In this document: positions 15,301 to 18,300 of the stretch, one piece after another
Layout: each line of letters opens with the position of its first letter
Position numbering within the stretch: position 1 is the first letter of the stretch
Assembly: GCA_030141605.1 (NCBI GenBank)
Contig: JAQGDQ010000191.1
Coordinates: 341,001-405,000 of the forward strand
Source of the DNA: Tubiluchus corallicola
Lineage: Eukaryota; Priapulida; Priapulimorpha; Priapulimorphida; Tubiluchidae
Length of the DNA: 64,000 nt
Direction: 5' to 3'
Notes under the pieces: model-generated
Told to the model about the DNA's origin: nothing
What the model saw: only the letters and a program-made list of their open reading frames with translations
Database searches by the model: none
Made by a program: the position numbers and the translations under genes

Positions 15301-18300
15301 ATTGGAAGTGTTTCACTAAATCATCGGCATTCCCGTTTCACGTTGACAAAGCCCACTACAATTGATTACTTTTTGATCATAGCTGCCGCATACACTCATC
15401 TCTTTTCTGAGAAGTTCTATGTAATTTTTTCTACAAATTCTTGCTGACAGGCTATACTTCAGAGACATGCTTCTCGCTGCTCAGACTTCATAAGTTTCAT
15501 TATATTTGCATACTGGTCACTAACAAAGATAGCAGCATTTATGTTTTTCTTTCAACTTTTGCATAGCTCTCTCAAAATCACGTACTTCCATCATAGAGTT
15601 ACACCCACCCGTCTGTGGCTTCTTGACCTGCTACATAGAAATTATGAGACCTGTAAAGTGTTCCATTAGAGTGATTAGACTGTACGAACAATAGTGTGTG
15701 GAGTTCTTTGGCGAATCAAATTGGCTGCTAGTGACAAGTTTTTAGGCTATTATAGTAATTACAGATACCTAACCCTTTCTGGCTAAATTTCATGAAAACT
15801 AAATTTCAGCATTAGTGTACTATAGTTTTACTACAATTTTCAGAAATTTTTGAAATAATAATAATTGTATCTCGCGGCTAACACAGTGCAACAGTGAGGC
15901 ATTTTTTTATGAAGTGTCATTTGACAAGCAGAAAACAATGCTTGCAGTTAATTTAAAGTGTGCTGCTATGATGAAATAGCCCAGCATGAGGTACCAGGGA
16001 TGTCATACTAAACTTTTTTTCGACTCGCATATAGTAGATTGAAGAAGTTGAGGACAAAACACTGATTTGAACAAAATATTAAAAGTTCCTTCAGCACTGC
16101 TTTAATGCTGGACTATTAGATTTTGGACAATTTATTCCCTGCAACTTCTGAACAATGCAGTGGCAACATTTTGGACAGAGTACTAATTTGTAAAAGGCAG
16201 TAAAAAAGCAAAGAAAAACAAGAAAAGTGAAAAATTCCGATAGGATACAATGAAGTAAAAAGTCAGTAACTCTATCAAGCAGTATGCTGCTGTGCGCAAG
16301 CACCACACTATACCATGAAAACACTATGCCACTATTATTTTCATGTTTTTTACACATTGAAATAATCACAACTTAAAAAAGTACCGAAAATTTGATTTTT
16401 ACTTGAAGGGGCTATCTGTCTGGAAATACAGTTGCACAATGCACGTGTCTTAAGGTCCTGTGTGTGTTTTGAATTATGCTTTTAAAATTAGAAAAGAGTG
16501 CTTCCATATTTGGTTAATGATGTGTTGTTTTTGTTTTAGATGGTAATTGAGGTGGCAGAGAAATATTTTCCAAACTTGTCAAAGGTCTTCCAACATCCAA
16601 AAGTAACAATTAATATTGGGGATGGATCCAAATTTATTAAGACATATGAAGAAGCGTTTGATGTTATTTTGACAGACTCTTCTGAGCCTAATATTGGTGT
16701 GTGTAAGTGTTCACTAAGTAAAAAGTTAAACTATAGTAACTGCTGGTTTTCTGTAAAGTTGTTATGTTTTATATCTTTAAACTCCATTAGACTCCATTTA
16801 TTACTTTAATCCTTACCAAACTGGTAAAATTTTAATGGGTACTCTTCGAATCCAAAGTCAATTCGATCTAGCTATATACTTTTGCTCTTTGATAAGTGTG
16901 ACATTTTGTCTTAAAAAAAATCAGCCTACTTGATTTTCTAAACTTTTTTCACAATATGGTTATCAACTTTATTTTTTGGAAAATTTACCCTCAATTATAT
17001 AGTTTTGTATAAATTGCAGGACCAAGTGCACCTTTGTACACCAAAGACTATTATGAGGCAGTCAAGAAGGCATTAAAGTCTGATGGACTTCTTTGCTCTT
17101 TAGGTTTCATTCTTGATTACGGTTTCTGAATTTGATTAATTTATTTGGTGAGATAGCATGTATAATACAAAAAGTGTTATAGATGCTGTTTCAGTGAATC
17201 CACCTATGGTAGTGTACTGGCAAGCTGCTTAGAAGAAAAAATATTGTAAATTTATAATTCGTGTAGATCTGTTTATTTGCTGAAACTGTAGCTAATTTTG
17301 TAATAATATTATGTTTTTTATTTTACCACTTTAGTACGCACTGACAATTTTTTGCTCACTATAGATTATTTTTTAAAAACTCTTTTATAGCAACTATTAC
17401 AAGTGAATAATTAAAAGTTACAAATTTTGACTCTGTTGAAAGATTTTCCAGACTATTTTCAAATCAAGATGTGGTAATGTTAAACCTTAAATAATAATTA
17501 GAGTGGTGTGATAAGGTTTTTCTGGACAGAGTTATTAACATACCTGGCTCGTACAAGGGACGTAAAATAAGTAGGACTGACTTTTCCTGTTGACAATGGT
17601 TATTATTTGAGGCAATCATGGTTTTCTTAGCAGGTGCCAAATCTTTGTAACATAAGGTTAAGTATGTTATGAACACAGAAGGGTTTTTCTTGTCGACCTA
17701 GGGACGAATGACCCATTTAAAACTTCTCTGCAATAGCTTTTACATGGATAGCCGGGTAGTTTAAGTAAGACCAGTTGTAACTTTTAGACAGTGGTTACCT
17801 AGAAAAGACAAAATGGTAAAAATTAGTAAGTCATCAGAGATGGCCCAACTGTTAAATTAACAAAGATCAACTATTTTTATTTTTTTTTGCTTTTTAGGAG
17901 ATTCCATATGGTTAGATTTGAAGCTCATTAAAAAAATGCAAGATTTTTGTAAACTACTTTTTCCTGTAGTTCAGTATGCCACAACTACTGTGCCAACTTA
18001 TCCAAGTGGACAAATTGGATTTCTACTTTGCAGTAAAAATCCTGTAAGTTATATCTTTTCTGTGGCTTTCACATCTTGTACTGTAATCTGACACAGTCTT
18101 AAAACCTGTCTTGTTATTACATAATTTATTAATATTCTCGGAGAATTCCCAATGCATGTGCGTTTTTAAATTATTTACCTTATGCGTGTTATAGCGTTTT
18201 GAATATATTTTGTAAGGTGCCCTGGGCTTTATGTAAATCTAGGTATTTTTTCTTGACTATTTTTTCGACCAAGTTTTGGAACATGATAGAAAGATCTGCT

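Follow-up and report, generated by a model that had tools for sequence, protein, structure and literature searches.

Yeasts and plants are known to have spermidine synthase duplicates that gained new substrates, according to PMC12803844, which traces the spermine synthases of budding yeasts and vascular plants to duplication of spermidine synthase (SpdSyn) and describes animals as using a separate, fused spermine synthase. The putrescine methyltransferase of nightshades presumably also comes from a duplicated spermidine synthase (PMC3725402). Among the closest described enzymes is animal spermidine synthase (SRM), represented by the human protein (PDB 2O05/2O06). We took the roles of contact residues from the accounts given in PMC12812037, PMC6514230, PMC4356361, PMC10146546, and PMC4342090, and all residues below are numbered as in the human protein, anchored on Asp173. 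Putrescine is described as being deprotonated by Asp173, with the Ser174 backbone, Tyr79, and Tyr241 (PMC12812037). The distal amine is anchored by the second Asp of the DSSD motif, reported as Asp170 in K. lactis (PMC10146546) and Asp199 in P. falciparum (PMC4356361), which is position 176 in human; in these papers the residue is described as invariant in spermidine synthases and required for putrescine binding. Asp181 and Gln214 of the M. truncatula thermospermine synthase (TSPS) are reported to contact each other, and the gate loop to cover the adenine with its C-terminal half, through Pro and Leu (PMC6514230). The former two correspond to positions 176 and 206, with the equivalence of Gln214 obtained by counting along the chain, as was that of P. 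falciparum Gln229 and Glu231 with human Gln206 and Glu208.

We analyzed a 64,000-nucleotide stretch of Tubiluchus corallicola DNA (the window), in which two spermidine synthase genes lie side by side on the same strand, with copy 1 upstream of copy 2. Each gene has eight exons with corresponding intron positions and GT..AG introns. Spliced copy 1 is 864 nt long (288 codons, without a stop or frameshift), and spliced copy 2 is 861 nt long (287 codons). Copy 1 scored 237.1 bits against Pfam PF01564 and 66.6 bits against PF17284, and its score against NCBIfam TIGR00417, the speE equivalog, was 337.6 bits with a cut-off of 249.55. It shares 68.5% identity with copy 2 and 57% with human spermidine synthase. 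A PF01564 profile search of the animal's own genome (343.5 Mb, 2,344 contigs), which a divergent spermine synthase (SMS) could escape, gave 6 exon-level matches among 11 candidates scored, all of them in copies 1 and 2. IMG/VR yielded no relative when scanned with either copy 2 or a five-sequence alignment as query. Among the papers listed from the open-licence literature, none reported an animal with a diverged tandem copy of spermidine synthase.

Table 1. Coordinates of the two spermidine synthase genes and of two donor sites of copy 1, counted from the first position of the window.
Feature	Position	Strand	Remarks
Copy 1, whole gene	9380-20264	+	
Copy 1 exon 1	9380..9510	+	N-terminal domain; Trp equivalent to human W28 kept
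Copy 1 exon 2	12425..12545	+	Y79 and Q70 kept; Q80 to His, S78 to Val
Copy 1 exon 3	14308..14400	+	GGGDGG with D104 and CEID with E124, both intact
Copy 1 exon 4	16540..16696	+	Ends TDSSEPNI-G; D173 kept, D176 to Glu, one residue inserted
Copy 1 exon 4 donor region	16697..16708	+	GTGTGTGTAAGT; frame needs TTG/gtgtgt, score 2.1, normal range
Copy 1 exon 5	17020..17103	+	Ends LLCSL; A181S, E182A, S183P, F185Y, Q206L
Copy 1 exon 5 donor	17104..17109	+	TAG/gtttca; score -6.4; 17 other donors span -0.8 to 7.7
Copy 1 exon 6	17898..18043	+	E208D at start, Y241 kept; no acceleration
Copy 1 exon 7	19458..19577	+	
Copy 1 exon 8	20250..20264	+	Coding to 20261, then stop TAG
Copy 2, canonical spermidine synthase	22519..28475	+	
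Copy 2 exons 1-4	22519-22649, 22961-23081, 23484-23576, 23951-24104	+	
Copy 2 exons 5-8	24304-24387, 25120-25265, 26750-26872, 28464-28472 plus stop	+	

We favor, at a probability of roughly 40%, the reading that copy 1 is a selected paralogue in which the aminopropyl-transfer residues are intact and the distal-amine pocket is remodelled. Copy 1 would have arisen long ago by tandem duplication of a spermidine synthase of animal type and been retained by selection. The residues for binding decarboxylated SAM (dcSAM) and for aminopropyl transfer are present, those holding or lining the far end of putrescine have changed together (D176E, Q206L, and E208D), and the gate loop has gained one residue. 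The protein would then still move aminopropyl groups, with its amine preference altered or reduced. The acids of the distal pocket have swapped lengths, from Asp to Glu at 176 and from Glu to Asp at 208, with the charge kept, and this swap looks more like adjustment to a different amine geometry than like a loss. Because the capping Trp is kept, we lean toward a short diamine that is not putrescine, or weak use of putrescine, over a dedicated spermine synthase. The kept Trp would be compatible with longer amines as well, by analogy with P. falciparum spermidine synthase (SPDS), which also has Trp and is reported to use spermidine besides putrescine (PMC5035006). Against this reading, the changes at D176, Q206, and E208 may simply kill the enzyme, given that Asp176 is described as invariant and needed for putrescine (PMC4356361, PMC10146546).

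Re-splicing of both genes from the window bore out the sequence difference given in a preliminary description of this DNA, in which copy 1 reads TDSSEP and GPSAPLY where copy 2 reads TDSSDP and GPAESLF; the interval where it was placed, 16540-17103, runs from the start of copy 1 exon 4 to the end of exon 5. The gate loop of copy 1 was also found to be one residue longer (EP-NI-G, versus DP-V-G in copy 2), the next exon junction reads CSLGD in copy 1 and CSQGE in copy 2, and the substitutions Gln206 to Leu, Glu208 to Asp, and Gln80 to His are present; that description mentioned neither the longer loop nor these substitutions. Two roles that it assigned need correction. The second Asp of DSSDP was called a catalytic acid/base, a role that PMC12812037 gives to the first Asp (human Asp173), which copy 1 has. 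The Glu of PAES was said to contact the amine, yet the position is not conserved, being Lys in the Arabidopsis and Ala in the K. lactis SPDS.

Copy 1 has Asp173, Tyr79, Tyr241, D104, E124, and D155, as a spermidine synthase should, and has Glu where Asp176 would be expected. Its likeness to animal SRM extends from domain make-up and overall identity to these residues, to Trp28, and to most of the dcSAM site; it differs by D176E, Q206L, E208D, Q80H, A181S, F185Y, and the extra gate loop residue. We compared 21 ligand-site positions drawn from papers, some matched from other species' numbering (23, 28, 49, 65, 70, 79, 80, 104, 124, 125, 155, 173, 174, 176, 180, 181, 184, 206, 208, 241, and 246; Leu65 is one that we take to be a ligand site). 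Sixteen are kept in copy 1, among them W28, Q49, Q70, Y79, D104, E124, D155, D173, S174, P180, L184, Y241, and I246, and five are changed (Q80H, D176E, A181S, Q206L, and E208D). Q80H is unremarkable among the sequences compared; His at this position is also natural in P. falciparum SPDS, in TSPS, and in 2 of 3 further bacterial SpeE.

The comparators numbered 42: copy 2, five eukaryotic SPDS, one TSPS, a Thermus aminopropyltransferase, human SMS, and 33 bacterial loci. Although these are not independent, since the bacterial majority comes from few clades (20 of the 33 are Acetobacteraceae-type), position 176 was Asp in 41 of them (44/45 with the three further bacterial SpeE), the lone exception being Ser in human SMS, and position 206 was Gln in 42/42 (45/45 with the same additions), which argues that the change in copy 1 goes beyond chance. 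Columns invariant in five eukaryotic SPDS, 13 bacterial SpeE, and copy 2 were altered by copy 1 in 5 of 55 cases (K134E, D176E, F185Y, Q206L, and E208D), four of which fall between 173 and 208; the same count for copy 2 gave 0/50. When each eukaryote was left out in turn, the losses were 1/56 for human, 3/58 for C. elegans, 3/58 for K. lactis, 4/59 for A. thaliana, and 6/61 for P. falciparum, or 17 in total with none within 173-208. By this comparison, the number of invariant-site losses in copy 1 is not extreme, but their place is. In the 77 columns invariant in the five eukaryotes and copy 2, copy 1 alters 5 of 15 inside 173-208 and 4 of 62 outside (one-sided Fisher p = 0.012, uncorrected, for a region picked post hoc).

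Copies 1 and 2 were sisters (100/99) in an IQ-TREE analysis of 18 of the 43 sequences, with branches of 0.37 and 0.14, the former 2.6 times longer. Both nested with human, C. elegans, and K. lactis (98/99), the branching order among these being unsettled, in a tree with 6 of 15 inner branches open and long branches flagged; the duplication is lineage-specific on this tree, only within its sampling. Tajima counts (copy 1/copy 2) were 39/18 with the human outgroup (chi-square 7.7) and 36/17 with C. elegans (6.8), and were not significant with K. lactis (29/21, 1.3), A. thaliana (23/18, 0.6), or P. falciparum (19/19, 0.0). With the human outgroup, the excess in copy 1 was 28/7 in exons 2-5 and 11/11 in exons 1, 6, 7, and 8 together, exon 7 alone giving 4 versus 1. 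Three outgroups were split by exon, and this contrast gave one-sided Fisher values, uncorrected and for a region picked post hoc, of 0.019 for human, 0.031 for C. elegans, and 0.23 for K. lactis (not significant).

A whole-gene dN/dS near 1, named in the preliminary description as the mark of simple decay, was not what we found: dN between the copies was 0.21 and pS 0.78, with synonymous change saturated, an average over the whole history that is blind to recent relaxation. Differences at codon positions 1, 2, and 3 were 26, 13, and 56%. Neutral simulation from the copy 2 coding sequence (2,000 runs; substitutions only, without indels) left 37% of runs free of stops at 0.02 substitution/site, 0.95% at 0.1, which by our reckoning is about what the excess branch needs, and none at 0.3. 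The open frame after deep divergence therefore excludes long neutral decay, and with it an old neutral pseudogene, but not recent decay or relaxation. The earlier judgment that copy 1 is a paralogue with a changed loop and no obvious pseudogene agrees with its open 288-codon frame. The options offered with it, namely a shifted substrate, a slow or dead enzyme, or a regulatory partner, all remain candidate readings.

The main rival, which we consider unlikely overall, is that copy 1 was long functional and has recently been relaxed, failing first at the gate loop and the exon 5 splice signals, its transcript being largely mis-spliced. Donor scores were computed with a frequency table not derived from this genome, which itself weakens this rival. 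For exons 1-7 they were 3.1, 2.8, 2.8, 2.1, -6.4, 3.0, and 7.7 in copy 1 and -0.3, 5.6, -0.8, 4.4, -0.4, 1.5, and 2.0 in copy 2, and four TDP-43 donors picked by eye scored 3.6, 6.7, 1.4, and 2.2. The exon 5 donor of copy 1 is extremely weak and scores like a random GT: the window has 3,728 GTs on the plus strand, of which 2,176 equal or exceed it, and about 0.15% of true donors would be as low under that table. The earlier claim of intact splice sites throughout is thus true of the GTs and AGs, which are present, but not of the strength of this donor. Production of the full changed-loop protein is therefore in question. Skipping of exon 5 would keep the frame and lose 28 residues, use of an alternative in-frame donor at 17121 (score -4.6) would add six residues, and read-through of the donor would end the protein after 203 residues.

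The exon 4 donor bears on the same rival. Six nucleotides past it lies TGT/gtaagt, which is in phase and would give a TGA at the exon 4/5 junction; its score is 0.3, with a poor exon side, and the frame-keeping donor beats it under the same table. The remaining GTs around this donor shift the frame, create a TGA, or score -2.8 or lower. Other exon 4/5 boundaries restoring DSSDP and PAES had also been envisaged, but a tblastn search of the window with the two proteins gave a single exon 4 and a single exon 5 in each gene, with all else at chance level (E 0.1 or more), and nothing in the copy 1 introns would restore the motifs. With respect to the marks of a pseudogene (stops, frameshifts, or lost splice sites), copy 1 has an open frame on the one hand and a very weak exon 5 donor on the other. 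Decay also gains from the loss of residues invariant across the family and from an exact 139-bp duplication on the exon 7 donor. It is opposed by the 288 codons without a stop or frameshift, by 6 of 7 donors in the normal range, by the concentration of changes in exons 2-5 rather than in exons 1, 6, 7, and 8 pooled, by the preserved charge at 176 and 208, and by the 16 of 21 ligand-site positions kept.

Next comes the reading, which we regard as improbable, that copy 1 has little or no catalytic activity and joins copy 2 as a non-catalytic subunit, in the manner of the dead paralogues of trypanosomatids. The N- and C-terminal domains of SPDS are reported to mediate its dimerization (PMC12812037), and the copy 1 excess lies in the core, with none in exons 1, 6, 7, and 8 taken together (exon 7 alone being 4/1). 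Dead paralogues are described as activating enzymes of the same pathway (PMC5201418, PMC3663545), and copy 1, like the trypanosomatid AdoMetDC prozyme and the deoxyhypusine synthase regulatory paralogue, is a diverged paralogue of the polyamine pathway. However, the prozyme is described as being without key catalytic residues (PMC5201418), whereas copy 1 retains the catalytic base, the two Tyr, and, apart from Q80 (His) and A181 (Ser), the dcSAM-site residues listed, which a purely structural subunit would not need.

Less probable again is that copy 1 still transfers aminopropyl groups to putrescine, as an isoform that differs in expression or, modestly, in kinetics. Its identity to copy 2 and to the human enzyme, its score above the speE equivalog cut-off, and the natural occurrence of His at 80 in P. 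falciparum SPDS and bacterial SpeE are all consistent with such an isoform; the loss of the nearly universal Asp176 and of Gln206, and the longer gate loop, are not. Least probable, and in our view quite unlikely, is that copy 1 has left the putrescine niche through the acid length swap and the loss of the otherwise constant Gln206 and makes a polyamine different from spermidine, or that it is the first regulatory spermidine synthase subunit.

Copy 1 was also compared with other known aminopropyltransferases and relatives. As in the spermine synthases of yeasts and plants, it is a diverged spermidine synthase duplicate; it differs from them in keeping the capping Trp. It resembles plant and bacterial TSPS (ACL5 type, PDB 6BQ2) in the His at the Gln80 position, in LYTK after the gate loop, and in the longer gate loop itself, but identity is 30%, copy 1 does not group with TSPS in the tree, it lacks Gln206, and it keeps Glu124 and Trp28, where TSPS has Asp at 124 and no Trp28. 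It is not an animal SMS, for which we looked for an AdoMetDC-like N-terminal domain plus a divergent aminopropyltransferase domain, as its 288 codons are SRM-like from residue 3 to 286. Putrescine N-methyltransferase is described with Ile in place of Asp104 and Thr in place of Gln80 (PMC3725402; positions matched by us), and copy 1 keeps D104 and has His at 80. TSPS, SMS, and putrescine N-methyltransferase were accordingly rejected as identities for copy 1.

Copy 1 is a real and well-delimited variant of moderate interest and no new kind of system. If the preferred reading is true and the amine pocket was rebuilt around transfer residues that stayed intact, the same duplication route would be shown in animals, and the D176-Q206 pair would become a testable specificity switch. 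If copy 1 is merely failing, it would be an instructive case of an open frame with an unsound splice signal.

Several other features of the window were recorded. An exact 139-bp tandem duplication (19575-19852) spans the exon 7 donor of copy 1 and creates a second, identical one; a possible 10-nt mini-exon derived from it (19707-19716) would end the copy 1 protein early. Adjoining the SRM pair is a TDP-43 gene (31450-35526, minus strand; Pfam TDP-43_N) whose first 79 residues are 61% identical to the human protein, and MTHFR (63057-63761, minus strand) is also a neighbor. Human SRM, TARDBP, and MTHFR map to 1p36.22, and SRM, TDP-43, and MTHFR may therefore form a deep conserved gene neighborhood; among the papers listed, none was about it, judged by title and abstract. 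Two reverse transcriptase fragments (Pfam RVT_1; 6955-7437, plus strand, and 46410-47024, minus strand) are probably retroelement remains. An Rfam U3 snoRNA match at 61643-61727 on the minus strand (85 bases against a 219-position model, 44.8 bits) is probably a shortened copy. A tandem array at 54157-54505 consists of 4.1 copies of an 86-bp unit with 98% matches.
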